In this document: positions 6,359 to 28,271 of the stretch, one piece after another
How positions within the stretch are numbered: the first letter of the stretch is position 1
Layout of the letters: each line of letters starts with the position of its first letter
NCBI GenBank assembly: GCA_016209385.1
Contig: JACQWB010000278.1
Coordinates: 1 to 33,935, forward strand
Direction: 5' to 3'
DNA from: Candidatus Rokuibacteriota bacterium
Lineage (GTDB): Bacteria > Methylomirabilota > Methylomirabilia > Rokubacteriales > CSP1-6
DNA: 33,935 nucleotides
Translations under genes and position numbers: made by a program
The notes under the pieces: model-generated
Database searches by the model: none
What the model was told of the DNA's origin: nothing
The model's input: the letters and a program-made list of their open reading frames with translations, nothing else

Positions 6359-6984
6359 ATCCCGGCCGTCAGTCGCCAGAGGAGACGCTCCTTAGCTTCT
6401 TCTCGCCGCCCTTCGGCGATCAGCCTGCGGAGGTCGGCGTCCAGGGCCCGGCGCCATGCTTCACCGTCAACCGAGCGCGCGTGCTGGCGCAGCTCACGCC
6501 TGACCTCAGCCGCTACCTGGGCCAGCACGGTGTACTCCTCGGTGAAGTAGGCTTCCAGCTCCTCCCTGATCACGCGCGCGAGCGCCGGGCTGGCCCCTCC
6601 GGTGGCGACCGCCACCACCAGGTCGCCGCGTCGGAGAACCGAGGGCAGGATGAAATCGCAATGGGCGGGGTCATCGGCGGCGTTGACCCAGACCCCGCGC
6701 TCCCGCCCTTCGCGAGCCACGCTCCCGTTCGCTTCCCCGTCGTCGGTGGCGACGAAGACGAGCTGATGGCCGGCGAGATCGCCCCGGCGATACTCACGCG
6801 CGACGTGGCGGACCCGCCCTTCGCGCGCCAGCTCGCCGAGGCGCGGCGCGAGCGCGGGAGCGACGACCGTGACCGAAGCCCCCACGGCGAGCAGCCCTTC
6901 GACCTTCCGCTCGGCCACCGCGCCGCCACCGACGACGAGGCACGACCGGCCGGCCAGCTCGAGGAAGATCGGGTAGTAGCCCAT
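6349..6984 (-). CDS. Precorrin-2 dehydrogenase / sirohydrochlorin ferrochelatase (Met8/CysG-N type)
   Basis: A 211-residue protein of the Met8/CysG N-terminal type. It oxidises precorrin-2 to sirohydrochlorin with NAD and, in many members, inserts iron to make siroheme. It begins MGYYPIFLELAGRSCLVVGG, the Rossmann opening, followed by a GGGAVAERK loop. VFVATDD, VNAADDPAHCDFILPS (with the Asp needed for catalysis in homologues) and ATGGASPALAR are also clear. The start at 6984 lies just after a very stable hairpin (6995-7023), with AAGG between. The gene is followed by the overlapping cobA. No separate ferrochelatase (SirB/CbiX) is seen, which fits a bifunctional enzyme. Confidence 0.9.
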   Translation of the reverse strand: MGYYPIFLELAGRSCLVVGGGAVAERKVEGLLAVGASVTVVAPALAPRLGELAREGRVRHVAREYRRGDLAGHQLVFVATDDGEANGSVAREGRERGVWVNAADDPAHCDFILPSVLRRGDLVVAVATGGASPALARVIREELEAYFTEEYTVLAQVAAEVRRELRQHARSVDGEAWRRALDADLRRLIAEGRREEAKERLLWRLTAGICG

Positions 6985-7249: not shown

Positions 7250-10159
7250 CTACCCGTCCACGCCGTGGGGCGGCCGGCCCGGCGAGGCGTCCCGGGCCAC
7301 GGCGGCGACCTCCCCACCCGCGAGGAGCCCGCGCAGCTGCTCATCCGTATGGCGGGAGCAGAACTGGCGGAAGTTCTCTCCGTTGCTGCGATCGGCGAGG
7401 TATCTCCTCAGGAGCCGCTCGATGGCTTCGGGCACCTCGGTCGCGGAAACGCGGTAGCCCACCGGACGGGCCTTGGCCTGGTGCTTTCCCACGGCCCCGC
7501 CCACGCAGAAGTAGTAGGCGTCCGCCATCGTCCCTTCGACCTTCGTCTTCTTCCCCTCGATCCCGATGTCGGCGATCCAGTGCTGGCCGCAGCTGTTGGG
7601 GCAGCCGGTGACGTGGATCTTGACGTGCTGCTCGAAGCGCGGCATGCGTGTTTCCAGCTCCTCCACCAACCAGCGGGCGAACCCCTTGGTCTCCGTCAGT
7701 GCAAGCTTGCAGAACTCGGTGCCGGTGCAGGCGATGGTGCCCCGCCAGAACGGGGAGGCGCGAAGCCTCAACCCGGCCGTCTCGACCTCTTTCGCCAGGG
7801 CTTCCGTGTTTTGCGGGCGCACGTTGAGGATCAGCAGGTTCTGCATGGCGGTTGTGCGCAGCTCGCCGGTCCCGTAGCGGTCGGCCAGGTCGGCCACGAG
7901 CCTCATCTCGCCCGCGGTCATTCGGCCCCGGAGGACAGCGATGCCTGCATAGACGTAGCCGTCTTGCTTCTGAGGGTGGATCCCCACATGGTCGCGGTAG
8001 ACGTCGTCCGGCGGTTCCTCGGGAACGGCGGGGTCCAGGCGAAAGCCGATCCGCCGCTCCAGCTCCTCCTGAAAGCGCTCCACGGTCCAGCCGTGAGTGA
8101 GAAAGAGAAACTTGAGCCGCGCCTTCTCGCGGTCCTGCCGCAGGACATCGCTGTCGCTGAAGATCTGGGTGATGCCTTTGACGACGGGGAGGACCTCGTT
8201 CCAGTGGACGAAGACGTTCAGACGCAGGCCCAGGTGCGGGGTCGTCGAGAGCCCCCCGCCGACCCTGACCGAGAAGCCGATCTCGCCCGTCTCAGGATGC
8301 GTGATGGCGGTCATGCCGATGTCGTTGATCTCGGGGTAGGAGCACCAGACCCGGCAGCCGGTGATGGAGACCTTGTACTTGCGCGGGAGGTTGGAGAACT
8401 CGGGGTTGCCGTTCAGCATCCGGGTCGCCGCGTGGTTCAGCGGGGAAGCGTCCACGATCTCGTCGGCGTCCACGCCGGCCAGCGGGCAGCCGGTGATGTT
8501 GCGCGTGACGTCGCCGCAGGCCCCCATGGTGGTGATGCCGCACCGCCAGAGGCTCTGGAAGATCTCCGGGATCGCCTCGATCGGGACCCAGTGGAGCTGG
8601 ACATTCTGGCGGACGGTGAGGTCTCCGACCGCGCGCGCATGCTTCTCGGCGAGGTCGGCGATGCTGCGGAGCTGGTGAGAGAGGAGGAAGCCGTTCGGGA
8701 TGCGGATCCGCACCATGAAGTAGGGCACCGCCTTCCCCTCGCCGCCCTTGCCGCCGATCGCGCCGAGGCCGTCACCCTGGGTGTAGACCCCCCACGCGCG
8801 GAAATACGTGTTGAGCCACGCTGCCGGGATCGATTGATACCCCTCGCGAGCAAACCGGACGATCTCGTCGAAATGCTCCCAGGGGTTCAGCTCGCGCTTG
8901 AGGCGCTCGACCCTTTGCGCCTTCGTCTCTTTTACCGGAGCCTCTTTGACGGGCTCTGCCGGGGCGGCCGTGACCTCGGCCCCGCGCACCCAGTCTCGCA
9001 GGATCTCTGCGACCTCCGGGCGCGCAAGCTCCACGGGCAACGGCTCGCCCCGGCCCAGAAGCTCGCGCACCAGCGTCCCGCTCAAGGCCACCCGGTTCGA
9101 CGGGCCGTGAGGGCAGGTCTTCGGGGACGTGAGGGTCTCGCACCGGCGGCAGTAGAAGGTCTCGTCGAAGAAGAGGGGGACGATCCCCAGCTCCCCGGGG
9201 GCGAACTCCCGGAAGAGGTCGTCCACCGACACGCGGGACAACGCGGTCTCGATGCCCGTGTACTCGCGCCCCACGACGTAGTGGGTGCAGCCGTAGTTCT
9301 TCCGGACGAGGGCGTGGAAGAGCGTCTCCCGGGGACCGGCGTAGCGCATGGCGCCGGGAAACACCGCGAGGACGACCCGGTCCCTGGGGAAGTACTGCTC
9401 CACGAGGACCTGGTAGCAGCGGACGCGGACCTCCGAGGGAATCTCGTCGAGCTTCGACTTCCCCACCAGGGGGTGGATGAGGAGGCCGTCCAGGGGCTCG
9501 AGCGCGCACTTCTGGATGTACTCGTGGGCGCGGTGGACCGGGTGCTGGCTCTGGAATGCCACGACGGTTCGCCAGCCAAACTCACGGAACCGGGCCCGCG
9601 TCCCCGCCGGGTCCAGGCGGTAGGGCTCAAAGCCCTTCAGGGGCGGGCGGGCGATCAGGTCCACTGGTCCGGCGAGAAGCACGTTTCCGCGGGTGGTCTG
9701 ATACTCGACTCCGGGGTGGCCCGGGTCCTCGCTGCCGTACACGAGGCGGGTCTCTTCATGCCAGTCGTAGGGGAAGCGCTCTTCCACGTGGAGGATGCCG
9801 AGCAGCTCCTCCCAGGGGGCCACGAGAGCGACGTCCTCCCCTTCCTTCACGGCGTCGGCGGTTAGACGTCGAACCGCCAGAGTAATGGGGAGCGTCCAGG
9901 GTAGCCCGTTGGCCAGGCGCATCTCACCGAGGACGCTCCGGTAGTCGGCCTGGCCCATGAACCCCTCGAGCGGGCTGTAGGCGCCGACGGCCAGCAGTTC
10001 CAGGTCCGACATCGTCCGGGCGTTGAGGGCAATTGGCTTGAGGGAGGAGGCCCGCCGGCGGGCCTCCTCCAGGGCCTCCCCACGGAGGACCCGATCAACA
10101 AGCCTCCCGCCGTGGGGAGAAACCAGGTGAGTCGCAGAAACCTGGACTGTCTCGGTCAT
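7250..10159 (-). CDS. ATP sulfurylase fused to siroheme [4Fe-4S] sulfite/nitrite reductase
   Basis: A 969-residue fusion. Residues about 1-395 are a Sat-type ATP sulfurylase that makes APS from sulfate and ATP. It shows QSQHPVHRAHEY (203-214), IHPLVG, GPRETLFHALVRKNYGCTHY and a YCRRC...TCPHG zinc-type cluster. Residues about 396-415 form an Ala/Pro/Glu/Lys linker. The rest is a ferredoxin-type sulfite/nitrite reductase with the siroheme-[4Fe-4S] cysteines in CTGTEFC (811, 817) and TGCPNSCG (853, 857). The start at 10159 has GGGGGAAG upstream; an in-frame start at 10216 adds an unlikely 19 residues. Downstream genes make siroheme, its cofactor. Sulfite versus nitrite cannot be decided by eye, but fusion to Sat favours sulfite. 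The intermediate enzyme, APS reductase, is absent from the window. Confidence 0.9.
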   Translation of the reverse strand: MTETVQVSATHLVSPHGGRLVDRVLRGEALEEARRRASSLKPIALNARTMSDLELLAVGAYSPLEGFMGQADYRSVLGEMRLANGLPWTLPITLAVRRLTADAVKEGEDVALVAPWEELLGILHVEERFPYDWHEETRLVYGSEDPGHPGVEYQTTRGNVLLAGPVDLIARPPLKGFEPYRLDPAGTRARFREFGWRTVVAFQSQHPVHRAHEYIQKCALEPLDGLLIHPLVGKSKLDEIPSEVRVRCYQVLVEQYFPRDRVVLAVFPGAMRYAGPRETLFHALVRKNYGCTHYVVGREYTGIETALSRVSVDDLFREFAPGELGIVPLFFDETFYCRRCETLTSPKTCPHGPSNRVALSGTLVRELLGRGEPLPVELARPEVAEILRDWVRGAEVTAAPAEPVKEAPVKETKAQRVERLKRELNPWEHFDEIVRFAREGYQSIPAAWLNTYFRAWGVYTQGDGLGAIGGKGGEGKAVPYFMVRIRIPNGFLLSHQLRSIADLAEKHARAVGDLTVRQNVQLHWVPIEAIPEIFQSLWRCGITTMGACGDVTRNITGCPLAGVDADEIVDASPLNHAATRMLNGNPEFSNLPRKYKVSITGCRVWCSYPEINDIGMTAITHPETGEIGFSVRVGGGLSTTPHLGLRLNVFVHWNEVLPVVKGITQIFSDSDVLRQDREKARLKFLFLTHGWTVERFQEELERRIGFRLDPAVPEEPPDDVYRDHVGIHPQKQDGYVYAGIAVLRGRMTAGEMRLVADLADRYGTGELRTTAMQNLLILNVRPQNTEALAKEVETAGLRLRASPFWRGTIACTGTEFCKLALTETKGFARWLVEELETRMPRFEQHVKIHVTGCPNSCGQHWIADIGIEGKKTKVEGTMADAYYFCVGGAVGKHQAKARPVGYRVSATEVPEAIERLLRRYLADRSNGENFRQFCSRHTDEQLRGLLAGGEVAAVARDASPGRPPHGVDG

Positions 10160-10186
10160 GCTTCCCCCGCAAAGGGTGTGTCCGAA

Positions 10187-10216
10187 ATACTCACATTTGT
10201 CGATCGGTAAAGTCAA
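10187..10216 (-). promoter_or_regulatory. Candidate promoter for the sat-sir operon
   Basis: On the minus strand TTGACT (10216-10211) is followed after 17-18 nt by a weak -10 (TGAGTA/GAGTAT, 10193-10187), about 30 nt upstream of the chosen start. The stretch is clearly more AT-rich than its surroundings. Confidence 0.35.
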
Positions 10217-10345: not shown

Positions 10346-10560
10346 CTATCCCTTCACCTGAGCCCAGCGGCTCACGAACTGCCCCGCGGCCCACACGCCG
10401 ACGGCGAACGTCCCGAAGGAGAAGATTCCCAGGGAGAACACACCGACCGAGAAGACCCCGACGGAGAAGAGGCCGGCGGAGAAGACCCCCGCTGAGAAGA
10501 GGCCGGCCGACAGGACCCCCGCGCTGAACAACCCAGCGGATAGCCAGCCAGCCGACATCC
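10346..10560 (-). repeat. 15-bp tandem repeat within the pentad protein
   Basis: The pentads are also visible in DNA as imperfect 15-bp units (GAGAAGA followed by CCCCSRCC-type blocks on the plus strand) from about 10365 to 10545. Units near the middle are most alike, suggesting expansion by slippage. Confidence 0.6.
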
Positions 10561-10663
10561 GGTCCTTGGGCGCTGCATTGGGGATTGGCGGGCCGACCAG
10601 CCCGATCAGGAGCAGAACCATCAGCACTCCCCAGATGATCAGATTAGCGACGCGACGGGTCAT
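10346..10663 (-). CDS. Small membrane protein with eleven S-x-G-x-F pentapeptide repeats
   Basis: A 105-residue protein. Residues about 6-24 form a hydrophobic, probably membrane-inserted segment (LIIWGVLMVLLLIGLVG). From about residue 37 the chain is tandem pentads such as SAGLF, SAGVL, SAGVF, SVGVF, SLGIF, SFGTF, AVGVW and AAGQF, eleven in a row, ending in a short basic tail. A five-residue period with small, Gly and large hydrophobic positions resembles the pentapeptide-repeat right-handed helix, but without its usual A(D/N)LXX code, so the fold is a guess. The ATG at 10663 has AAGGAGGATC upstream, a strong start. The gene stands alone, divergent from padR. No function can be assigned. Confidence 0.75.
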   Translation of the reverse strand: MTRRVANLIIWGVLMVLLLIGLVGPPIPNAAPKDRMSAGWLSAGLFSAGVLSAGLFSAGVFSAGLFSVGVFSVGVFSLGIFSFGTFAVGVWAAGQFVSRWAQVKG

Positions 10664-10839
10664 GGCTCGATCCTCCTTCAGCACCCTGCTAGAGGCCGAA
10701 CGTGTTCCGGGTGAAGGTCCCGTGAAAGCCGAACGGCACGTGGTGGCGGAGCGAGAGCACAGCGAGCGGACGAGCCGCAAGAGCCGTGGCGATCGCCGCG
10801 ACGCTTAAGAAATGTTCGCCGATCCTGCACCCTCACCAT

Positions 10840-17332: not shown

Positions 17333-17623
17333 ATGTTGGAGTGGGACGCGCGGAAGGCCGCGGTCAACCGCACCAAGCACGGGGTCTCGTTTGAAGAGGC
17401 GGCGACCGTGTTCGGCGATCCGGATGCCCTGGACGGCCCAGATCTGCGTCACTCCGAGAAGGAGTCACGATTCCTGCGACTGGGCCGCGCGGCGACGGGC
17501 CCCGTGCTCATCGTGGCCTATACCGTTAGGAGGCGAGACGATGGCGAAAGTATCCGCATCATCAGCGCGCGCCGGGCGAGCCGGAAAGAGCGGGCGGCCT
17601 ATGCGGCGGCGTCCCGGGATTGA
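17333..17623 (+). CDS. brnT: BrnT-family ribonuclease toxin
   Basis: A 96-residue toxin of the BrnT family (RelE-like fold ribonuclease that inhibits translation). Hallmarks are EWDARKAAVNRTKHGVSFEE, the VFGDP turn, a RFLRLGRAATGPVLIVAYT strand pair and IRIISARRASRKERAAY near the end. Length and motif spacing are normal and the frame is intact. No clear ribosome-binding site lies before the ATG at 17333, in line with leaderless expression from the -10 at 17322. The BrnA antitoxin overlaps its 3' end; the toxin-first order is the usual one for brnTA. Confidence 0.88.
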   Translation: MLEWDARKAAVNRTKHGVSFEEAATVFGDPDALDGPDLRHSEKESRFLRLGRAATGPVLIVAYTVRRRDDGESIRIISARRASRKERAAYAAASRD

Positions 17624-17843
17624 CTTCTCCGACATCCCGGAGACTTCCCCCGCCCAGCTCCGAGCGATGCGCCGCGTGGGGCGGCCCCCCTTGGGGGCTG
17701 AGGCCAGGCGACTGATCGCCATTCGGATCGATCCCCAGGTCCTCGACGCCGTGCGGCGGGAGGCCAAGCGGCGAGGGTTGGGCTACCAGTCCCTCATCAA
17801 CGATGTGCTCACGAGGCATGTCGCACGGGAGCGGAGCGCCTAA
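17541..17843 (+). CDS. brnA: BrnA-family antitoxin
   Basis: A 100-residue antitoxin. The central IDFSDIPETSPAQLRAMRRV segment and the C-terminal ribbon-helix-helix (RLIAIRIDPQVLDAVRREAK then LGYQSLINDVLTRHV) match BrnA, which binds BrnT and represses the operon. The ATG at 17541 is chosen because AGGAGG sits 8 nt upstream and because homologues have some 15-25 residues before the FSDIPE motif. An alternative ATG at 17601 would give 80 residues and a shorter overlap. The chosen start overlaps brnT by 83 nt. The AGGAGG may instead be chance Arg-Arg codons of brnT. Confidence 0.82.
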   Translation: MAKVSASSARAGRAGKSGRPMRRRPGIDFSDIPETSPAQLRAMRRVGRPPLGAEARRLIAIRIDPQVLDAVRREAKRRGLGYQSLINDVLTRHVARERSA

Positions 17844-18197: not shown

Positions 18198-19493
18198 CTA
18201 AAACGAATACCGGAGCGACGCGCGGACGACGCTCCCGAGCGGGAGGCTGCCGAACTCGCTCCGCGGCGAGCCGTAGAAGAAGTCGAGGGTGAGTACCCCT
18301 TCCAGGTCACGCGCCAGCCGGTAGCGCGCCTCGCCGCTCAGCGTTCCGCTCCCGTCCTGAAGGTTCAGGAGGAGAAACCCCGACAGCGCGAGCTCGCTGC
18401 CCGGCGGCAGAGACCCGCTCGCCCTGACGAAGGCATAGTGCTGGCCGCTCTCGCCCGGCGTCAGGAGCTGATTCGCACGCAACAGGAAGATCCGCGGGAG
18501 ATCGGGCGGGCCGGAGACACGCGCGTTCCCGCCGTCCTGAAAGCTCCGGGCCAGGCTGAGCCCGTCGAAGACGGTCTCCCGCTCCCGCCCGGTCAGCCCG
18601 TCACCGTTGTAGAAGTACTCCGCGATCAGGTTCACGCCGCTCGGAAAGGTGTACTGGGCGCCGAGGAGGGTTTCGCCGACCAGCCGGTGGAGCCGCCGCT
18701 CTTGCCAGAGCGGCACAGGCACGGCTCCGGGCCGGCCGCTCGGGGCAACGAAGGCTGGCAGCTCTCTCGATCGCATGCGTCGGAGGATCCCCTCGAAGTG
18801 AAGCTCCAGCGCGTCCCCGAAGACCCGCGCGAGCGAGACCCCGCCCTGCCATTCGCGGCCCCGGTAGAGATAGAGCGCGACGTCAGTGCCGGCAACGAGG
18901 TCGCTCCCGCGGGCCCAGAACTGCTCCACGGTATTCGAGACCCCCTCGGTATCGAGGCCGTCCAGCTCGGGAGCGTAGACGACCGCCAGGCCGCGCCGTC
19001 CCGCCCTCGCCTCTGCCCTGACGAGGTAGTGGCCGCGGCGGTGGTCCCGCTGCTCCTTGGGATCCTGGCTGAGCGCGGCCGCCGCACGGGTCCGAAAGAA
19101 GTCAACCGGATTCCAGGCATACCCGACTCCCTCCCGAACCCGTTCCTTTCCGACCTCGATCAGGAGATGGGGAGACATCCGGTAGACCACGTAGGCATCC
19201 TCCAGAATGTTGTCCACGCCGTCGCCGTGTTCGGTGATCGTCCCGATGGCCCGGTTTACGAGCGCGAAGTCGAGCGCCGGATGCGGACCCGCGTCGAGCC
19301 TGAGATCGAGGACACCCTGGCCGATCCCGGAAGCAACATCGAAGAGCCGGCCGCCGGGGTTCAGCAGGCTGCGCTCGTTGGAAGCCTGGTATGCGCCATC
19401 GAGCCTGAGGGTGCCCCCCCACGACCAGTCGAGGGCCAGCGCGGCGGGCGCCCACAGGAGGAGTGCGAGAACCACGCCAACGGCACAGAACAC
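18198..19493 (-). CDS. Outer-membrane beta-barrel protein (last gene of the cluster)
   Basis: A 431-residue protein with a signal peptide (residues 1-20, ALA cleavage) and alternating strand pattern throughout (WSWGGTLRLDGAYQAS, HLLIEVGKERVREGVGYAW, GVNLIAEYFYNGDG). It ends VVRASLRYSF, the C-terminal aromatic signature recognised by the BAM machinery, so it should be an outer-membrane barrel. It looks like the uncharacterised porin-like proteins found beside LolA-like and transporter genes. GTG start at 19493, 2 nt after the LolA-like stop. Its likely role is the outer-membrane end of the export line encoded upstream. Confidence 0.75.
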   Translation of the reverse strand: MFCAVGVVLALLLWAPAALALDWSWGGTLRLDGAYQASNERSLLNPGGRLFDVASGIGQGVLDLRLDAGPHPALDFALVNRAIGTITEHGDGVDNILEDAYVVYRMSPHLLIEVGKERVREGVGYAWNPVDFFRTRAAAALSQDPKEQRDHRRGHYLVRAEARAGRRGLAVVYAPELDGLDTEGVSNTVEQFWARGSDLVAGTDVALYLYRGREWQGGVSLARVFGDALELHFEGILRRMRSRELPAFVAPSGRPGAVPVPLWQERRLHRLVGETLLGAQYTFPSGVNLIAEYFYNGDGLTGRERETVFDGLSLARSFQDGGNARVSGPPDLPRIFLLRANQLLTPGESGQHYAFVRASGSLPPGSELALSGFLLLNLQDGSGTLSGEARYRLARDLEGVLTLDFFYGSPRSEFGSLPLGSVVRASLRYSF

Positions 19494-19495
19494 AT

Positions 19496-20254
19496 TCAGC
19501 GGAGGAATTTGAGGTAGGTGGGGTGGAAGATCTCGTCCCTCAGCGATTCCAGCCGCAGCTTGGAGTAGATCATCCGCGAGAGCGCGTCAGCCCGCACCGC
19601 GTCGCGGATCTGAACCTCCGTCGGTCGGAGAGCGCCAAGCACCTCCCGATACCGCGTGTAGCGGGCGGTTTTCAGGAGAAGGCCCGTGATGGCATAAAAC
19701 TCGGCCTTCACCGGGAGAAACGTCTCGCGCTCGACCCAGTAGCGGATCCGGTGGTAGGTGGCCCCTTCCACCACCCCGCGCAGCTCCAGGACGTGGCAGG
19801 CGCGTCCCTCGACCTGATCGTCACCGTCGAGGGCCGGGACGTAGTCGCCCCCGAAGTTCACCCGCATCACGTCGGCGTGGGAGACATCGCCGAGGAGGCG
19901 CTGCTGGGGCGAGATCCTGAGCGGCCGGTCGGTGGCCGGGAGGTACACCCAGAGGTTGGGGCCCACCATCAGAAGGATCTTCCCGCGGTCAGCCGGCGGG
20001 AACACAAACCTGGCCAGGCTCTTGTCCGGCAGCTTCACGGACGCCGCCAGTCGCGCGTTGGGCTCCTGCTCGGTCCCGGTTGGAGTGACAATGGCCAGCT
20101 CGAAGGAGAACGACGGCCCGGGGGCCCTGATCCGGTCCGCCTGCCTGACGATCTCGGCCGCGGTCAGGGCGGCCGCGGGGTCAAGGCCGGCCGGGCAGAC
20201 CAGCGCGGCGACAACGCCACCCAGGACCCGGGCCCAGCCGACGGAACGCTTCAC
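19496..20254 (-). CDS. LolA-like outer-membrane lipoprotein-sorting protein
   Basis: A 252-residue periplasmic protein with a signal peptide (about residues 1-29) and a LolA/LolB-like half-barrel. Recognisable features are the paired strands SFSFELAIVTPTG, SLARFVFPPADRGKILLMVG, LWVYLPATDRPLRI and the C-terminal MIYSKLRLESLRDEIFHPTY. Annotations call this family outer membrane lipoprotein-sorting protein; members often sit beside RND/MMPL or ABC permeases and carry lipids or hydrophobic compounds across the periplasm. ATGA overlap with the ATPase gene. In this operon it is best read as the periplasmic carrier for the cluster's product or for a lipid it is attached to. Confidence 0.82.
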   Translation of the reverse strand: MKRSVGWARVLGGVVAALVCPAGLDPAAALTAAEIVRQADRIRAPGPSFSFELAIVTPTGTEQEPNARLAASVKLPDKSLARFVFPPADRGKILLMVGPNLWVYLPATDRPLRISPQQRLLGDVSHADVMRVNFGGDYVPALDGDDQVEGRACHVLELRGVVEGATYHRIRYWVERETFLPVKAEFYAITGLLLKTARYTRYREVLGALRPTEVQIRDAVRADALSRMIYSKLRLESLRDEIFHPTYLKFLR

Positions 20255-20925
20255 GGCCCGAGAACCCGTCCATCCTGCACGCGCACGACCCGGCCGGCGC
20301 GCCTGACAAGACCCGGATCGTGGGTCGCCATGACGAACGTCGTGCCCCGGTCTCGTCGAGCCTCCTCCAGGAGATCGATGATGGCCTCGCCCGTTCGAGA
20401 GTCCAGGTTGGCGGTCGGCTCATCGGCCAGGATCAGCCGGGCGCTGGTGACCAAGGCGCGCGCGATCGCCACCCGCTGCTGCTGGCCACCGGAGAGCTGG
20501 TCCGGGCGGTGACGGGCGTGAGCCGCCAACCCCACGCGCTCCAGAGCCTCCTCGACCCGGCGTCGCCGCGTCGCGCGCGCGACCGCCTGGAAGAGCAGCG
20601 GGTACTCGACGTTCTCGTACGCCGTCAGCACCGGGAGCAGGCTGAAGAACTGAAAGACGAAGCCGACCGTCCCCGCCCGAAAGCGCGCCAGCCCGTGCGG
20701 AGACAGGGTGGCGAGGCGCTGCCCGTCCACGGTGATCTCGCCAGAATCGGGCCGGTCGAGGCCTCCGATCAGGTGGAGGAGCGTCGATTTCCCGCTCCCC
20801 GAGGGGCCGACGACGGCCGCGAACTCACCCCGGCCCACCTCCAGCGAGATCCCCCTGAGCGCGGGGACGAGCGTGCGGCCCAGCCGGTAGGTTTTGACGA
20901 TGTCCCGGACCGCGACGTGCGGCAT
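20251..20925 (-). CDS. ABC transporter ATPase, LolD/MacB type
   Basis: A 224-residue ATPase with Walker A GPSGSGKST, Q-loop FVFQFFSLLPVLTAYENVEY, signature LSGGQQQR, Walker B LILADEPTANLDS and H-loop MATHD. FVFQFF.LLP.LTA.ENV is typical of the LolD/MacB/FtsE clade, whose permeases work as mechanotransmitters on periplasmic substrates and do not make a simple pore. It lies 6 nt after the permease gene and overlaps the LolA-like gene by ATGA. Confidence 0.93.
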   Translation of the reverse strand: MPHVAVRDIVKTYRLGRTLVPALRGISLEVGRGEFAAVVGPSGSGKSTLLHLIGGLDRPDSGEITVDGQRLATLSPHGLARFRAGTVGFVFQFFSLLPVLTAYENVEYPLLFQAVARATRRRRVEEALERVGLAAHARHRPDQLSGGQQQRVAIARALVTSARLILADEPTANLDSRTGEAIIDLLEEARRDRGTTFVMATHDPGLVRRAGRVVRVQDGRVLGP

Positions 20926-20931
20926 CGCGCC

Positions 20932-22203
20932 TCAGGTGTAGCGAAGGGCCGCCGCCACGCGCATCCGCGAGGCCCGCAGCGCGGGGTAGAGGCTGGAAAC
21001 GAGCGCGGTCAGCACCGACGAGGCAAAGGTGAGGAGCAGCACGCGGGGAACGACGTTGAGAAACACGACGTAGCCTCTGGAGGCCCCGGGCGGCGGCGCC
21101 ATGGCGATCCCGCCGAGGGCGTTCATCAGATGGCAGGTGCCGACGCCGGCCACGGTGCCGAGCGCTGCCCCGACCAGGCCGACGAGCAGCCCCTCGAGGA
21201 GGAAGAGCTCCGCCACGACGGGACGGCCGACTCCGAGCGCCATGAGCGTCCCGATCTCCCGCGTCCGCTCGAAGATCGCCATCAGCATCGTGTTCAGGAT
21301 GCTCAAGACGACGATGAGGGCGATGACGACTCGGACGAACCGGTACATCCCTTCGTAGACCCGGACCACGCGATGGTAGAAGCTGGCCAGCTCGGTCCAG
21401 CGCCGGACCTCCAGGGGCCACCCGCCCCGCTCGATCTCGTCGCTCAGGCGCCGGGCGACGGGATCCGTCAAGTCGGTGTCCGTCAACAGCACGACGACCC
21501 TGTCCACCCGGTCGCTCTGGACGAGCCGCTGGGCCATCGGGAGCGGCAGAAGGATCGCCCGCTGGTCAAAGTCCTCGGCACCGGTCTCGAAGGTGCCGGC
21601 CACCGTGACATCCATCCCGTTGATCGTGCCCCCCAGGGTCGTCGTGAGCAGGATTACCCTGTCGGCGGCCTTCACGTCGAGGGCCGCCGCGAGGCCCTTG
21701 GCGACCAGGATCTCGCGGGCTGCAGAGGTTGCCAGGGGCGCGCCGCTCGCGATGGTCAGGAAGGACAGGGCCGCACCCTCCTTCTCCGGTTCCATCCCCC
21801 GCCCCACGAACGGCAGCGTGGTCTCCCCGTTCCCGATGAGCCCGCTGATCTCGAGACGCCGGGACACCCCTTCGACCTCGGACCATCCGAGGAGGATCCG
21901 CTCCACCGCCTCGGCTTGCGATCCTTCGAGGAGGACGGACATCGGGTGGGAGAGGCGCTTCTCGGCGTGCCCCGTCCTGGCGATCTGCAGGTGACCCAGG
22001 TGGTTCCGGATGGTCGTCTCCCGAAGCCCCCAGAACGCGTAATCCATGTATCCGCCGAACGTGATCAGGGCGACGGAGCCGGAGGCGATCGCGGAGACGG
22101 TGATGGCTGTCCGTCGCTTGTTCCTCAACACGTTGCGCCAGGCAATGCGCGTGTGCTCGGGGAGCGTTAGAACCCACCACGCCACCCGCCGCGCGACAGG
22201 CAT
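20932..22203 (-). CDS. ABC permease, FtsX/LolC/MacB type
   Basis: A 423-residue permease. There is one N-terminal membrane helix (about 27-50, after RIAWRNVLRNKRRTAIT, the usual MacB/LolC entry motif) and a large periplasmic domain (about 55-270). Three C-terminal helices complete it (VRVVIALIVVLSILNTMLMAI; ELFLLEGLLVGLVGAALGTV; LLLTFASSVLTALVSSLYPA), with the RTREIGTLMALG coupling motif between the first two. Such permeases form dimers with a LolD-type ATPase and extract or push lipophilic substrates at the outer face of the inner membrane. The start at 22203 overlaps the stop of the TPR gene by one base. Confidence 0.9.
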   Translation of the reverse strand: MPVARRVAWWVLTLPEHTRIAWRNVLRNKRRTAITVSAIASGSVALITFGGYMDYAFWGLRETTIRNHLGHLQIARTGHAEKRLSHPMSVLLEGSQAEAVERILLGWSEVEGVSRRLEISGLIGNGETTLPFVGRGMEPEKEGAALSFLTIASGAPLATSAAREILVAKGLAAALDVKAADRVILLTTTLGGTINGMDVTVAGTFETGAEDFDQRAILLPLPMAQRLVQSDRVDRVVVLLTDTDLTDPVARRLSDEIERGGWPLEVRRWTELASFYHRVVRVYEGMYRFVRVVIALIVVLSILNTMLMAIFERTREIGTLMALGVGRPVVAELFLLEGLLVGLVGAALGTVAGVGTCHLMNALGGIAMAPPPGASRGYVVFLNVVPRVLLLTFASSVLTALVSSLYPALRASRMRVAAALRYT

Positions 22204-22931
22204 CAGCGAAGCCGGTCCAGCTCGCTCCGAGCCCAGACGTTTTGTGGCTGGAGTGCCACGGCTCGCTCGAGAACCTCACGGGCTTCCGCCCGCTGCCCCC
22301 GCTCTCTCAGCGCGATCCCGAGCCAGACCCGGGCCTGAACGCTCGCGGCCTCGAGCTGGATCGCCTTCTGGAAATGCCGGACCGCCTCGTCGGGATCTCC
22401 CCCGAAGAGCTTCGGGGTCCGGAGCTTCCAGATCCCCATGGCCAGGGCGGCGCGCGGGTTGTCGGGATCGAGCTTCAGGGCCAGGGCGAGCTCGTTGTAG
22501 GATCGCCGACCGTACAGCACCCCGGTCATCCCGCCCTTGAGGCTGATAAGCCGCCCGTAGGCCTCACCGAGGATCCGGTGAGCGTCGGAGTGTTGAGGGA
22601 GCTGCTGGATGGCAGTCCTGGCCGAAGCGATGGCCTGGTCGATCTCGCCGAGGGCCCTGTCCGTTTCCTTGCGCCACGCGTGGATGCCGACCAGGGCGAG
22701 GGCGACCCTGGCCTGGTAGTAGGGAACGGAGGGAGACGGGACCCCCGAGCGGGCAAGCTGATCGAATAGGCTTCGGGCCCTCCCCAGCGCCTCGGCGTCA
22801 AAGGCCGACTCGCCGGCCTCGAGCAACCGGCGGGCCTCGTCCGGAAGGTCCGCCGACGGTTCATCAGCGCCGAGCATGACCGAAAGCACCAGCAGGAAGA
22901 CCCCGATTCCCCGCACGGCCGTCGCCCTCAC
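22203..22931 (-). CDS. Exported TPR-repeat protein
   Basis: A 242-residue protein with an N-terminal hydrophobic segment (GIGVFLLVLSVMLGA, residues 8-22) that is either a signal peptide or an anchor. Helical repeats follow, including TPR-like units at the C-terminus (NPRAALAMGIWKLRTPKLFG, AVRHFQKAIQLEAASVQARV, AREVLERAVALQPQNVWAR). The likely role is a periplasmic scaffold for the export proteins encoded after it. GTG start at 22931 overlaps the stop of the GriH-like gene (GTGA). No catalytic motif is seen. Confidence 0.78.
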   Translation of the reverse strand: MRATAVRGIGVFLLVLSVMLGADEPSADLPDEARRLLEAGESAFDAEALGRARSLFDQLARSGVPSPSVPYYQARVALALVGIHAWRKETDRALGEIDQAIASARTAIQQLPQHSDAHRILGEAYGRLISLKGGMTGVLYGRRSYNELALALKLDPDNPRAALAMGIWKLRTPKLFGGDPDEAVRHFQKAIQLEAASVQARVWLGIALRERGQRAEAREVLERAVALQPQNVWARSELDRLR

Positions 22932-24040
22932 TGCTCGACGATCGTCTCGGTCACCTTGATCCCGACGTGCCTTCCCGGCTCGCAGACATAGCCGAGGACC
23001 CTCTCCCCCTGCCTCAGCGTCGTCACGCCGCGGGGTGCCCCGTCAGCGCCGAAGATCCGCACATGCCAGTCATCCTGGGCGAAGAGATTCACGACGGCGG
23101 CGCCGCCCACCGCCTCGATCCTCAGCAGCGGGCGGATCTCGATCTTCACCCGCCCGACCCCGACTGTCCTCGCCTCCCCCGAGGTGCGCACCGCGAGCAC
23201 CTCCGAGCCGGCTCTCAGGTCAGTCAGATACTCGGCCATCTCCCGCGGTCCCCAGAGGTAGGAGTGGATCGCTCCGGCGTTCACGCGGAACGGTCGCGTA
23301 TTCATGTAGGGGAGCGGGTGAACCTCCGAGCAGACCAGGATGCCCCCACCGGAGGTGGAGCCCACGACCATCCCCTCGTCCTCCGCCATCAGGGTCGTGG
23401 TATCGACGCAGGCGCGGTGTCCCATCCCCGCGTACTGGAGCCGGACGACCTGCATCTCCACCAGCTCCAGACGATGGGTGGGCCGCGCGCTCAGCTCATG
23501 AGCGATCCCGGCCACGGTCGCGGGATCACCGGGCGCCAGGAGGATCCCGTGACAGCCGTGCTCGAGCACCCCGAGGGCCACCAGCGCCTCCTCGGCGGTC
23601 TCCACGGTCTTGATCACCCGCGCCCGCGTGGACTGGGCGCGCGCCAGGATCAGCTCCAGGGGGATGTTGGTCTGCTCCTCGAGCGCGACGAAGAGGTAGT
23701 CGACCTGCTCGAGGAGCTGGCAGGCTTCCTCCAGGGTCCCGTCATCGCTGACCCGACACACGACTCCGACCGGGTTCCCGCGGCTCCTGGCCTGCTCCGC
23801 GAGGTCGCGCGAGCGGCACAGGACGACCTCGCCCCGGCCCGCGACCTCGGCCAGCTCTCCCGCGTCGGAGACCAGCCAGCCGCGGCGCACGCGCGCGGGA
23901 ATGTCCACGGAGGCCGCCTGGGGCGGGCGCATGAGAAGCGCGGTGACGGGGGAGTGGAGCGCCGTCGCCAGCGCCTGCGGCTCGACAGCCGGCAGGCCGG
24001 TCAAATCGAGCCACACCTCCGGAACCCTCAGCGCTTGCAT
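22928..24040 (-). CDS. 3-dehydroquinate synthase II / GriH-like 3-amino-4-hydroxybenzoate synthase
   Basis: A 370-residue protein of the archaeal-type DHQ synthase II family (COG1465). The hallmark stretch lies at about 220-260: EDEGMVVGSTSGGGILVCSE, then HPLPYMNTRPFRVNAGAIHS. The C-terminal half is the usual beta-rich domain (VNLFAQDDWHVRIFG). In archaea the family turns the C7 aldolase product into 3-dehydroquinate. In Streptomyces griseus the homologue GriH turns the same type of C7 precursor plus an amino donor into 3-amino-4-hydroxybenzoate. With a GriI-like aldolase in the same operon and biosynthetic-type partners, the GriH reaction is favoured. ATG at 24040 has GAAGGGG upstream; an alternative GTG is at 24046. 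Confidence 0.85.
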   Translation of the reverse strand: MQALRVPEVWLDLTGLPAVEPQALATALHSPVTALLMRPPQAASVDIPARVRRGWLVSDAGELAEVAGRGEVVLCRSRDLAEQARSRGNPVGVVCRVSDDGTLEEACQLLEQVDYLFVALEEQTNIPLELILARAQSTRARVIKTVETAEEALVALGVLEHGCHGILLAPGDPATVAGIAHELSARPTHRLELVEMQVVRLQYAGMGHRACVDTTTLMAEDEGMVVGSTSGGGILVCSEVHPLPYMNTRPFRVNAGAIHSYLWGPREMAEYLTDLRAGSEVLAVRTSGEARTVGVGRVKIEIRPLLRIEAVGGAAVVNLFAQDDWHVRIFGADGAPRGVTTLRQGERVLGYVCEPGRHVGIKVTETIVEQ

Positions 24041-24059
24041 CGGCACCCCTTCGCCCGCT

Positions 24060-24812
24060 TCAGGCCACGAGCGCCAGCATGTTCGTCGAGGTCACCTGCT
24101 CGAACGCCGGGCCGCGGAGCAGCAGATCGAGCTTCTCCAGCTCGACCTGCGGGTGGTGGAGCGGGAACTCGGAGCCGAAGATCAGCTTCCCGGGGCCCAG
24201 CCGTTCCAGGGCCGCCTTGAGGATCAGGTAGGATCCACCAGACGTCTCCAGAAAGAGGTTGTCGTGCCGGGCCGCCAGCTCGATCGCGTCCATGTCGGCG
24301 GGGCCGAACCCCATGTGACCGAGGATGAAGACGGTGCCGGAGAACTGCCCCGCCAGCAGTCCCATCTTCTCGGTGCACGCTCCGGGATGGTAGACGACGT
24401 GGGTGTAGAGGGGAACGCCGAGCGCCCCGCACGCAGCGGCCAGGTCGAGAACCGTCCTCGACGTGAGGGAGAAGCGGTGCACGAGGGGGGCGAGCTTGAG
24501 ACCGCGGAATCCCCGCCGGACGGCCAGCTCGAACTCCGCCACAGCGGTGTCGCCCTCGTGGGGGTTGACGCAGTAGAACCCCAAGAATTTTTCCGGCCTC
24601 TGCCGGATCAGGCGCTCGACGAGCTGGTTCGGAATCGCCGTCGCGTGGATCGGCTCCGCGCCGGTGAGGTAGCGGGTCATCTTCCTCACGTCGATCATGC
24701 CCCCCGGCACCAGGACGGCCCGATCGATGTTCGCTTGCGCCATCTGGGCGGCCAGCAGCTCCGGTGAACCGTAGCCGTCCTCGGTCACGTGAGCGTGGCC
24801 GTCAACGATCAC
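24060..24812 (-). CDS. Amidohydrolase-2-family metalloenzyme, possible benzoxazole cyclase
   Basis: A 250-residue TIM-barrel amidohydrolase. The HxH motif is at residues 6-8 (DGHAHV); further metal-ligand candidates are His138 (YTHVV) and His166 (ILGHMG). Near the C-terminus the usual GSDxP is GSEFP, with Glu215 in place of Asp. Family members are hydrolases or decarboxylases (ACMSD-like). In nataxazole and closoxazole biosynthesis, however, an amidohydrolase-like enzyme beside a CoA/AMP ligase closes the oxazole ring on an aminohydroxybenzoate amide or ester. The neighbourhood makes that role plausible here. GTG start at 24812 overlaps the stop of the second ligase (GTGA). Confidence 0.8.
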   Translation of the reverse strand: MIVDGHAHVTEDGYGSPELLAAQMAQANIDRAVLVPGGMIDVRKMTRYLTGAEPIHATAIPNQLVERLIRQRPEKFLGFYCVNPHEGDTAVAEFELAVRRGFRGLKLAPLVHRFSLTSRTVLDLAAACGALGVPLYTHVVYHPGACTEKMGLLAGQFSGTVFILGHMGFGPADMDAIELAARHDNLFLETSGGSYLILKAALERLGPGKLIFGSEFPLHHPQVELEKLDLLLRGPAFEQVTSTNMLALVA

Positions 24813-26080
24813 GGCCCGCCTCCCGATTGCTCCCCGATCACCCTGAGGAGCTTCCCCCCGGAGTACCCGAGGTCCGGGACGAACTCCACGGAACAGGCGA
24901 GGCCGAAGCGTCGGTGGAGCTCGGCCCGGATCGACTCGCTGAGCGACCCTCGATCCTCGATCGGTGGCCCGGGCAGCAGCACGCGCACCGAGCCGGCCTC
25001 GGGTTTGAGCCGGTACCAGGGGCTCACCCCCGGGAGAGCCAGCAGCACCTCCTCGATGTCCAGGGCGAAGCGGGGCGGCTCGACGGCTGCGACCACGTCC
25101 TCCGCGCGCCCGCGGAGGCGCAGCCGCGGGCCCGGGATCCCGCAGCGACAGGCTGACGGCTCCCAGCACCCCAGATCCCCCGTCCGAAACCGCAAGAGCG
25201 GGGAAGCCTGCCGCCACAGCACGGTGACGACGACCTCGCCCACGGGAGGGTCCGCGTCGGCGTCCGGCACATCCGCGCCTGGAACGACTTCGACGTGGAC
25301 GAAGTTGGAGGCCACGTGATAGCCGTCCCGCATCGAACACTCAAGGCCGACGGGCCCGCACTCCAGCGATCCGTAGTAGAGGAAGGCAGGACACCCCCAG
25401 AGATCCTCGATGCGACGCCGCAGCGCCCGAGAGCACGGCTCGCCGATGAGCCAGAGGGATCTCAACCTGATCTCCCCCGGGATGCTGATCCCCGAGCCCC
25501 CGGCGAGCTCTGCCAGGTGCAGGGCGTAGGACGGGGTCGTGAACAGGTGATCGCCCCCGAGGGCGCGCATCAGCTTCAGCGTCTTGGCAGGATCGGCGTA
25601 GAACCCGCCTTTCCCCACCGGCACCACGCACGCGCCGATCCCATCCTGGAGAGCCCGATGGATCGCCAGGCCGGTCACGCTCACCTCGTACGGAAGGGCG
25701 TTGAACACGATCTCCCCTTGGGCGATTCCCAGGAGCCGCGCCGCGGGCGCCTCGGACAGGAGCGGCATGAGCCCGCGAACGTACAGATCCTCCCAGTTGA
25801 AGAACACGTAGAGCGGCAGCCTGCCGCTGGTCCCGGTTGAGAGATGGGCCTGGGCGAGCTGGTCCTTGGGGACCGACAGGAGGATCCAGGGATCTCCTTC
25901 CAGTTCCTCCCGGTCCGTGAACGGGAGCAACGACAGGTCCTCAGGACGGTGAATCTGGTCGGGAGTCACGCCCGCCTTCATGAACTTTTCCCGGTAGAAC
26001 GGATTCCGATAGTAGGCATGGGTCGCGACCTGATGGAGCCGCGACGCTGAGGCCAGAGACTTCTCGAGCAGAAAGGACAT
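24809..26080 (-). CDS. Phenylacetate-CoA-ligase-like adenylate-forming enzyme (second copy)
   Basis: A 423-residue PaaK-type AMP ligase. The phosphate-binding loop is AHLSTGTSGRLPLYVFFNWE; the adenine/carboxylate region is YGSLECGPVGLEC; then FRTGDLG, LRLRGRAEDVV and a C-terminal domain with the catalytic-type lysine in YSGGKLLRVIGE. It activates a carboxylic acid, probably an aromatic acid, as AMP and then CoA or amide/ester product. The Cys pair in SACRCG near RTGDLG is typical of the family. ATG at 26080 has GGAGGG upstream and sits 14 nt after the first ligase; an earlier in-frame start at 26113 would overlap it. It resembles the first ligase along most of its length and so arose by tandem duplication. 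Confidence 0.88.
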   Translation of the reverse strand: MSFLLEKSLASASRLHQVATHAYYRNPFYREKFMKAGVTPDQIHRPEDLSLLPFTDREELEGDPWILLSVPKDQLAQAHLSTGTSGRLPLYVFFNWEDLYVRGLMPLLSEAPAARLLGIAQGEIVFNALPYEVSVTGLAIHRALQDGIGACVVPVGKGGFYADPAKTLKLMRALGGDHLFTTPSYALHLAELAGGSGISIPGEIRLRSLWLIGEPCSRALRRRIEDLWGCPAFLYYGSLECGPVGLECSMRDGYHVASNFVHVEVVPGADVPDADADPPVGEVVVTVLWRQASPLLRFRTGDLGCWEPSACRCGIPGPRLRLRGRAEDVVAAVEPPRFALDIEEVLLALPGVSPWYRLKPEAGSVRVLLPGPPIEDRGSLSESIRAELHRRFGLACSVEFVPDLGYSGGKLLRVIGEQSGGGP

Positions 26081-26094
26081 GGCACCCTCCGCGA

Positions 26095-27435
26095 TCAGCC
26101 GAGGTTCGGGCACGGCTCTTCGTGGATCACCCGCACGGTCTTTCCCCCGCTCCGGGGAAGCTCGGCAACGAACCGGACCTCGACGGCGACCCCGATCGCG
26201 TATTCGAGCTGGCTTTCAATGGCCCGCCGGACGGTCTCCGTCGGCGGGACGCCGGCCGCAGGTTCGATCCTGACGCAGAGGCGATCGGGCTTCGGCAGGA
26301 GCTCGTACCAGTTGCCGGCCTCGGGAATTCGCATCAGGAGCTCCTCGAGGTAGTACGGCGAGTAGGCCGCGCCGCCGACCTGAATCTGGTCGCCCGCGCG
26401 GCCGCGGAGGTGGAGCTTCCAGAGCGCGACGCCGCACCCACACGGGAGGTCGTCGACGAAGCCGAGGTCGCCGGTCCGGTAGCGGATCACCGGCGAGGCC
26501 AGCCGCGTCAGCTCCGTGACGACGATCTCGCCCACCTCTCCGGACGCGAGAGGCGTCGCCGTCGCCGGGTCGACGATCTCGACATAGACGTGCCCCGCGG
26601 CCACGTGGTATCCGCTCCGCGCCGGGCACTCGATGCCGATGGGCCCGGCTTCGAGGGAGCCGTAGAAGAAATACGCGGGGTGGCCCCAGAGTGCCTCGAC
26701 CCGCTCGCGGAAGGCGGGCGAGCAGCCCTCCCCGGTCAACCAGAGGAACCGGAGAGGGATCTCGGCGAGGGCGATCTTCTCCCGCTCGGCGGCCTCGGCC
26801 AGGAGTACGGCATAGGAGGGGGTGGTGATCAGAATCGTCGCGCCCAGATCGACCGCCGCCCGGAGGGTCCGCTCCGGCGTCGAGTAGTAGCCGCCCTTGC
26901 CCGTGGGCACCACCAGCGCGCCGCAACCCTTCTGGAACGTCCGGTGGAAGGCGAGACCGGCCGAGCTCATCTCGTACGGGAGGGCATTGACGACCACGTC
27001 GTCGATCCCCACCGGGACCAGCCGCCGCATGGCAGGTCCCAGGTTGAAGACATGAAGATCCTCCCAGGTGTGGGGGATGTAGATCTCCTCGCCGCCTGTG
27101 GTCCCCGTGGAGACATGAATCTGGGAGACCTGATGCAGGGGAACGGCGAGGAGCACCCAGGGCTTCCCGCGGATCTCCTCCCTGCCGGTCAGGGGCACGC
27201 GCGGCAGCTCTTCGGGCAGGACCAGGGACGTGGGATCGACACCCGCCGCGACGAACTTCCGCCGGTAGAACCGGTTGCGCTGCCACGCGTGAACCAGGAT
27301 CCGGGAGAGGGCCTCACGCTGGTAACCGGCCAGCCGCTCCCCGGACCACCGGTCCACCAGATTTTCGCCTTCCCGCAAATACCGCTCGACCAGCTCCGGT
27401 CGCGGCCCGCGGAGTCTCCGCTCCAGATACGACAC
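26095..27435 (-). CDS. Phenylacetate-CoA-ligase-like adenylate-forming enzyme (first copy)
   Basis: A 446-residue PaaK-type AMP ligase. Motifs are SQIHVSTGTTGGEEIYIPHT, FLWLTGEGCS, YGSLEAGPIGIEC, YRTGDLGF, DLPCGCG, LHLRGRAGDQIQVGG and the C-terminal lysine in RSGGKTVRVIHEE. It is 11 nt downstream of the GriI-like gene and 14 nt upstream of its paralogue. Two ligases in one small pathway suggest that either two different acids are activated, or one makes the acyl-AMP and the other the acyl-CoA or amide. Residues lining the acid pocket cannot be judged by eye. 3-Amino-4-hydroxybenzoate, the expected product of the flanking genes, is the natural substrate candidate. Confidence 0.88.
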   Translation of the reverse strand: MSYLERRLRGPRPELVERYLREGENLVDRWSGERLAGYQREALSRILVHAWQRNRFYRRKFVAAGVDPTSLVLPEELPRVPLTGREEIRGKPWVLLAVPLHQVSQIHVSTGTTGGEEIYIPHTWEDLHVFNLGPAMRRLVPVGIDDVVVNALPYEMSSAGLAFHRTFQKGCGALVVPTGKGGYYSTPERTLRAAVDLGATILITTPSYAVLLAEAAEREKIALAEIPLRFLWLTGEGCSPAFRERVEALWGHPAYFFYGSLEAGPIGIECPARSGYHVAAGHVYVEIVDPATATPLASGEVGEIVVTELTRLASPVIRYRTGDLGFVDDLPCGCGVALWKLHLRGRAGDQIQVGGAAYSPYYLEELLMRIPEAGNWYELLPKPDRLCVRIEPAAGVPPTETVRRAIESQLEYAIGVAVEVRFVAELPRSGGKTVRVIHEEPCPNLG

Positions 27436-27446
27436 GGCCGTGCCCC

Positions 27447-28271
27447 TCAGCCGTGAGCGTGGACGAGAGCCGGCGACTCGCTGGCCAGGTCGATGGCGGC
27501 CTCGACCGACACGCCATCGTGAACGATCTTGGCGAGCGCCCGGAGGAAGAGATGGGGCGCCGGATGCTGAAAGACGTTCCGGCCGATGCAGACCCCCGCT
27601 GCCCCGCAGGCCACCGCGGACTCAACCATCTCCAGCACGCGCCGATCCGACCGGTCACGCTCCCCTCCGGCGATCAGGACCGGGACGAAGCATCCGTGAA
27701 CGACCTCGAGCATCGCCTCGCGGCTGCCCGGGTAGCTCACCTTGACGAGGTCAGCCCCCAGCTCTGCCGCCAGACGGGCCGCGTGCTTGATCGCGGAGGC
27801 TGGCGAGCCGGGCTGGGCCCGGGCCCAACGCACGTACGTCATCGCGAGGAGTGGCATCCCCCACTGCTGGCACCGTCCCGCCACCTCCCCGAGGTCCCGC
27901 AGCATCTCCCCGTCGCGGGGCACGCCGAGGTTCACGTGGACCGAGACCGCATCAGCCCCGAGGCGAACCGCTTCCTCCACGGATGCGACGAGCACCTTGT
28001 GATCAGGGTCGAGACTCAGGGCCGTAGAGCCCGAAAGCTGGAGAATCCAGGGGAGCGTGGCCTCGAGGCCCTCGCTCTCGCTGATGGCGACGCCTCGATG
28101 GACGATCACCCCTTGAGCTCCCCCGTCGGCCACAGCCCGCAGGATCTTCCACGGCACCTCGAGCCCGGGGATCGGGCCTCCGGTCACCCCGTGGTCGAGG
28201 GCAACGAGCACCGCCCTTCCGGACTTCTGATGGATCAACCGCGCCAACCGAAACCGTTTCCCGCTCCCCAT
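27447..28271 (-). CDS. GriI/AroA'-like aldolase (C7 sugar precursor synthase)
   Basis: A 274-residue class I aldolase of the DeoC/FbaB superfamily, of the type of 2-amino-3,7-dideoxy-D-threo-hept-6-ulosonate synthase and GriI. The catalytic set is visible at correct spacing: Asp26 in VALDHG, Tyr146 in AMTYVRW and the Schiff-base Lys177 in LVKVSYPG. The gaps of 120 and 31 residues equal those of the archaeal enzyme MJ0400 (Asp33, Tyr153, Lys184). GRNVFQH near the C-terminus binds phosphate in the family. GriI joins aspartate semialdehyde to dihydroxyacetone phosphate for 3-amino-4-hydroxybenzoate; the archaeal enzyme uses a different ketose donor. ATG at 28271 follows GGGAGGCGGG. It is the first gene of the ten-gene operon. 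Confidence 0.9.
   Translation of the reverse strand: MGSGKRFRLARLIHQKSGRAVLVALDHGVTGGPIPGLEVPWKILRAVADGGAQGVIVHRGVAISESEGLEATLPWILQLSGSTALSLDPDHKVLVASVEEAVRLGADAVSVHVNLGVPRDGEMLRDLGEVAGRCQQWGMPLLAMTYVRWARAQPGSPASAIKHAARLAAELGADLVKVSYPGSREAMLEVVHGCFVPVLIAGGERDRSDRRVLEMVESAVACGAAGVCIGRNVFQHPAPHLFLRALAKIVHDGVSVEAAIDLASESPALVHAHG

Follow-up and report, generated by a model that had tools for sequence, protein, structure and literature searches.

The 33,935-nt stretch of DNA analysed here (the window; contig JACQWB010000278.1 in GenBank assembly GCA_016209385.1, a Candidatus Rokuibacteriota bacterium of the phylum Methylomirabilota) was found to carry a ten-gene operon that probably directs the synthesis and export of a specialised metabolite of the closoxazole type. 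This reading is based on the observed gene families, gene order, co-operonic spacing, homology and clade membership, from which we infer which reactions take place, what is made and what the exporter carries. Closoxazole gene clusters have been described in Clostridium cavendishii (clxA-E) and Pyxidicoccus fallax (pfxA-E), where they encode an aldolase (ClxE/PfxE), a 3-amino-4-hydroxybenzoate (3,4-AHBA) synthase (ClxB/PfxD), an amidohydrolase (ClxD/PfxB) and two adenosine monophosphate (AMP) ligases, ClxA/PfxC forming the dimer and ClxC/PfxA adding the third unit; the ligase and amidohydrolase steps were reconstituted in vitro, and related clusters occur in many phyla (PMC12118335). All five families, namely aldolase, dehydroquinate synthase II (DHQS-II), two AMP ligases and amidohydrolase, recur in the window operon, so that the biosynthetic combination described as new in an initial annotation of this DNA had already been published. 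The window operon differs from clx and pfx in its gene order, in including a cassette of ATP-binding cassette (ABC) pump, LolA-like, tetratricopeptide repeat (TPR) and barrel genes, and in having two ligases of the ClxC/PfxA-position type and none of the ClxA/PfxC type. Because the ClxA/PfxC ligase is missing, it is classed as a variant of the closoxazole type rather than an ordinary member. In a congeneric genome the order aldolase-ligase 1-ligase 2-amidohydrolase is conserved at 75-79% identity (76% for the aldolase) until the contig ends, and since the upstream gene order is kept at this divergence, the arrangement is considered to be beyond chance; the upstream flank of the congener differs from that of the window.

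The aldolase and DHQS-II families together convert aspartate semialdehyde and dihydroxyacetone phosphate into 3,4-AHBA, and would do so here, the aldolase supplying the C7 precursor. One ClxC/PfxA-type ligase would have assumed the initial step, in which two 3,4-AHBA units are joined at the expense of ATP. Closure of the benzoxazole ring would fall to the amidohydrolase, and the other ligase would attach a further aryl acid at the carboxylate of the molecule. The product may cross the inner membrane through the LolCE/LolD-like pump, pass to the LolA-like carrier and leave the cell via the outer-membrane protein; the TPR protein would assist in the periplasm. It is possible, if short of probable, that the two diverged ClxC/PfxA-type ligases perform both joinings without a ClxA/NatL2 ligase, perhaps with a 3,4-AHBA oligomer of greater length or other linkage as the outcome, and that this is exported across the whole envelope by the co-transcribed LolA-carrier pump. 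Whether the second class of ligase is enough to build the scaffold by itself is a question for which this operon is a natural test case.

Ligases and amidohydrolase

In a tree that included ClxA, NatL2 and PaaK, the cluster ligases split into two clades. The first holds ClxA, NatL2 and one ligase from each compared cluster with an amidohydrolase, while the other contains the second ligase of each of Heliorestis, Anaerosporobacter and Sorangium, that of Sorangium being encoded at the pfxA position. This second, ClxC/PfxA-position clade also took in the two window ligases and the two of the congener (100/100 and 100/99 in two trees). The tandem ligases proposed initially are present as two adjacent genes, and their reading as a ClxA plus ClxC pair was rejected by the trees, both being of the ClxC/PfxA-position type. 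Nataxazole synthesis uses the same logic of ligase (NatL2) and amidohydrolase (NatAM) to reach a benzoxazole, but NatL2 lies in the other clade with ClxA and the building block is 3-hydroxyanthranilate.

We take PDB entry 9s3l, which bears the label 'phenylacetate-CoA ligase', to be ClxA, since its residues S118, P120, K140, M198, Y218, Y219, T222, N226, D281, H301 and K393 equal those given for ClxA (PMC12519233). By docking, S118 and K140 of ClxA adjoin the hydroxyl and the carboxylate of the acceptor 3,4-AHBA (PMC12519233). The equivalents of both residues are kept in the two window ligases and their clade mates, and correspond to V and A in NatL2 and to F and G in PaaK. As PfxA alone yields some dimer in vitro (PMC12118335), a ligase of the ClxC/PfxA clade can plausibly catalyse the first step.

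The window amidohydrolase was compared with relatives from clx-type clusters, rather than with the ClxD sequence; identity reached 53% with the protein of Anaerosporobacter and 41-43% with the Heliorestis and Sorangium enzymes. In nearly all of 15 aligned cluster proteins the usual FGSD motif of Amidohydro_2 is replaced by FGSE or FGTE (the protein of locus L086 retains Asp); the window protein carries FGSE, its Glu215 presumably standing at the position of the usual metal-site Asp, and generic homologues mostly have FGSD. The initial annotation had proposed a condensing enzyme and had named want of any kinship with the NatAM/Clx cyclases as the finding that would speak against it; the identities of 41-53% and the shared FGSE argue for the proposal. 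The exchange of Asp for Glu also provides a sequence handle for telling condensing cluster amidohydrolases from hydrolytic ones. The confidently predicted structure (predicted local distance difference test score, pLDDT, 94) has 3cjp as its nearest fold and, more distantly, aryl decarboxylases of the ACMSD family.

Precursor genes

Of the 95 phylum genomes sampled (33 genera), a single one has DHQS-II, a distribution typical of an accessory pathway; a closoxazole-type gene set occurs here in a phylum where its marker is rare. In a 50-row tree six archaeal DHQS-II formed a separate clade (100/100), and the window enzyme lay outside it among biosynthetic-cluster enzymes, as sister to an actinobacterial cluster-enzyme group (95/98), which favours the reading of the gene pair as 3,4-AHBA precursor genes. 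The aldolase grouped with cluster aldolases at 90/87, below full support, and is 46.7% identical to archaeal MJ0400; placement on the side of the cluster enzymes, as first suggested, holds for DHQS-II and is at most suggested for the aldolase. The pair is shared with the grixazone (GriI/GriH) and bagremycin (BagB/BagC) pathways, but the window proteins matched the BagB_FevI and BagC_FevH models, which describe exact-type families, at scores well under their curated cut-offs.

Export cassette

The ATPase, permease and LolA-like carrier resemble LolCDE-LolA and PF17131 cassettes, but the pump stays under the LolC/E and LolD equivalog cut-offs (Table 1), has one permease, and is linked to small-molecule genes and a terminal putative barrel gene. 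Relatives of the LolA-like carrier were found at 38-41% identity within the bacterial family. Relatives carry cassettes of the same ATPase, permease and LolA_like protein, several of them extended by a TPR or barrel-like gene, at loci from which DHQS-II, ligases and aldolase are missing, and the export cassette is therefore regarded as a generic unit joined here to a biosynthetic operon. The 'dedicated trans-envelope exporter' of the initial annotation stands as a cassette in one operon with the pathway, and is dedicated by co-transcription only, as relatives carry the cassette alone.

The final gene matched no Pfam or NCBIfam model, DUF1302 included, and its structure prediction, made without homologues, was uninformative (pLDDT 35). 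Its phmmer relatives occupy the equivalent position in loci L126 and L128, and in L121 a DUF1302 protein directly follows the LolA gene, at the place equivalent to that of the window gene.

An apparently different DHQS-II/aldolase cluster with an interleaved cassette was found in a groundwater metagenome-assembled genome (MAG) placed in Myxococcota (L096/L147; L096:9896-20883). Its genes run in one direction in the order DHQS-II, reductase, acyltransferase-like, AMP ligase, barrel-like, LolD, permease, LolA_like, permease, aldolase, second AMP ligase and amino-acid kinase (probably aspartate kinase); its barrel-like gene is at most a candidate homologue of the final gene of the window operon. 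This cluster lends independent support to the view that such pumps serve this chemistry. The window operon points to a LolA-like trans-envelope route for the export of such aryl compounds in diderms; a literature search returned no published description of it and no report linking an exporter of this type to a biosynthetic cluster.

Weighing of alternative readings

Several points weigh against the closoxazole-type reading with export. The ClxC/PfxA-position clade was named by gene order, from Sorangium locus L148, and not by ClxC or PfxA sequences. A dimerising ligase of the ClxA/PfxC/NatL2 type is absent from the operon and none was recognisable elsewhere in the genome, where six further PaaK-like ligases were found, none of them in the ClxA/NatL2 clade (four of the six were placed again in the second ligase tree); ring formation may therefore differ from the closoxazole route. 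Six or more genomes of the bacterial family contain such export cassettes without DHQS-II, ligases or aldolase, which leaves the proposed cargo of the exporter tentative. The genome assembly is fragmented and about 95% complete.

The alternative that survives best, though we consider it unlikely, keeps the biosynthesis as proposed and takes the ABC/LolA/barrel cassette for a generic lipid or lipoprotein envelope transporter that merely lies downstream. The cassettes of the same family just mentioned favour it, whereas the intergenic distances of -4 to 6 nt between DHQS-II and the last of the pump genes, and the cassette of the same type amid the cluster genes of L096/L147, speak for a functional link.

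In a second alternative, two carboxylate-extending ligases would link 3,4-AHBA through amide or ester bonds into an open-chain oligomer, or form a mixed aryl amide, and the amidohydrolase would trim or edit the products without closing a ring. Such a product would agree with the membership of both ligases in the ClxC/PfxA-position clade and the absence of a ClxA/NatL2-type enzyme, and the oligoamides produced by the ClxA K140A variant indicate that the chemistry is accessible to the ligase fold. The amidohydrolase, however, goes with clx-type clusters both by sequence and by its FGSE motif, in contrast to generic homologues, which makes this alternative quite unlikely.

It is improbable that the products are esters derived from 3,4-AHBA, or a simple adenylated monomer feeding another pathway as in grixazone or bagremycin synthesis, with no benzoxazole at all. 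DHQS-II, and less firmly the aldolase, do group with enzymes of Streptomyces and Micromonospora clusters in which neither ligase nor amidohydrolase homologues were detected, but the operon holds no oxidase, reductase or other tailoring gene, and its amidohydrolase and ligases are clx-like.

The use of aldolase and DHQS-II for primary aromatic amino acid synthesis, by the archaeal route through 2-amino-3,7-dideoxy-D-threo-hept-6-ulosonate (ADH), which the initial annotation had tied to a genome lacking canonical aroG/aroB and to an aldolase and DHQS-II of shikimate type, was rejected as very improbable: the aldolase shares 46.7% identity with MJ0400 and passes the cut-off of the ADH-synthase subfamily model NF005556, but the genome holds one canonical aroB and canonical 3-deoxy-D-arabino-heptulosonate 7-phosphate (DAHP) synthase (two genes of the family), the other 94 genomes of the phylum lack DHQS-II, and the window enzyme lies outside the archaeal clade and is co-operonic with the ligases and the amidohydrolase.

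Operon layout

As the initial annotation had it, ten closely packed genes lie on the minus strand (28271 to 18198; Table 1), neighbours being separated or overlapping by no more than 14 nt. The spacings in operon order are 11, 14, -4, 13, -4, -1, 6, -4 and 2 nt, and because distances of -4 to 14 nt are the signature of a single transcription unit, the ten open reading frames (ORFs) are treated as one. Families were assigned with Pfam and NCBIfam models, and each protein except the last matched the expected family. After refinement the aldolase starts at ATG 28271, ligase 2 at ATG 26080, chosen because the ORF of the congener begins at the equivalent site, and the amidohydrolase at GTG 24812. 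The GC content is 0.69 in the operon (0.84-0.90 at third codon positions) and 0.67 in the flanks; this uniform composition, together with the congener carrying the same genes, ruled out contamination.

Table 1 Genes of the window operon, in order of transcription, with the matches on which their assignment is based.
Gene product	Position	Strand	Basis
Aldolase, DeoC family, GriI/ClxE-type, ADH-synthase-like	27447..28271	-	PF01791 E 5e-48; NF005556 above cut-off
AMP ligase 1, PaaK-like, ClxC/PfxA-position clade	26095..27435	-	47% to Heliorestis ligase, 49% to Sorangium pfxA-position ligase
AMP ligase 2, PaaK-like, diverged member of the clade of ligase 1	24809..26080	-	46% to ligase 1
Amidohydrolase, condensing-type, ClxD/PfxB-like	24060..24812	-	PF04909 (Amidohydro_2)
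DHQS-II, GriH-ClxB-type 3,4-AHBA synthase	22928..24046	-	PF01959 E 3e-97
TPR protein, probably periplasmic	22203..22931	-	TPR_11 E 2e-18; signal-like N-terminus
ABC permease, LolCE/MacB-like	20932..22203	-	FtsX, MacB_PCD; TIGR02212 110 of 362 bits, under LolC/E equivalog cut-off
ABC ATPase, LolD-like	20251..20925	-	ABC_tran; TIGR02211 233 of 308 bits, under LolD equivalog cut-off
LolA-like periplasmic carrier	19496..20254	-	PF17131 (LolA_like) E 2e-39, 135.9 bits against gathering score 30
Putative outer-membrane barrel, final gene	18198..19493	-	signal-like N-terminus, C-terminal Phe, position

Related loci and origin

A scan of GTDB genomes with a DHQS-II alignment gave 80 loci. Homologues of the ligases and of the amidohydrolase accompany DHQS-II in, among others, Heliorestis acidaminivorans (L042), Sorangium cellulosum (L048), Anaerosporobacter faecicola (L059), a genome of Pseudobacteriovorax (L060) and a group of actinobacteria. 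Sorangium cellulosum So ce26 holds two clx-type clusters (L048:9166-13710 and L148:5585-11262); the order ligase-amidohydrolase-ligase-DHQS-aldolase in L148 is that given for pfxA-E, and the first ligase of L048 is a C-terminal fragment only. The Heliorestis cluster also encodes a chorismate pyruvate-lyase-like protein (L042:17568-18182), which could possibly supply 4-hydroxybenzoate for mixed products.

The affinities of the window genes fall in three directions: DHQS-II, and less firmly the aldolase, towards actinobacterial clusters, the ligases and amidohydrolase towards clx-type clusters of Bacillota and Myxococcota, and the exporter towards cassettes of the bacterial family to which the organism belongs. 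On this sequence evidence the operon looks as though it had been assembled from three sources.

Searches with the amidohydrolase found nothing at 60% identity or above among plasmids, and among 379 Myxococcota genomes Sorangium was the sole strong match, P. fallax not being recovered. The amidohydrolases of genome G027 (35%, the nearest relative in the same bacterial family outside the genus) and of Ensifer were set aside as not clx, their gene context being different. These two (L026:8204-9013 and, on the Ensifer megaplasmid, L023:8001-8750) share one common context, with a sigma-54-type regulator, a peptidoglycan-binding-like protein, a protein resembling pyridoxal phosphate enzymes and large conserved ORFs. 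Besides its canonical archaeal DHQS-II, a Euryarchaeota MAG (L044:900-2015) has a second copy, placed among the enzymes of bacterial clusters.

Other features of the window

Immediately past the end of the operon lies an ORF resembling BrnA/CopG-type antitoxins (17391-17843, plus strand). A single minus-strand ORF (7250-10216) combines PUA_2/ATP-sulfurylase with two NIR_SIR modules, as an ATP sulfurylase-sulfite/nitrite reductase fusion; it is adjoined by ORFs (5558-6984) that by reading, with no Pfam run, resemble siroheme-synthesis genes. A small minus-strand ORF (10346-10780) consists of SAGLFSAGVFS-like repeats preceded by a membrane-like stretch.

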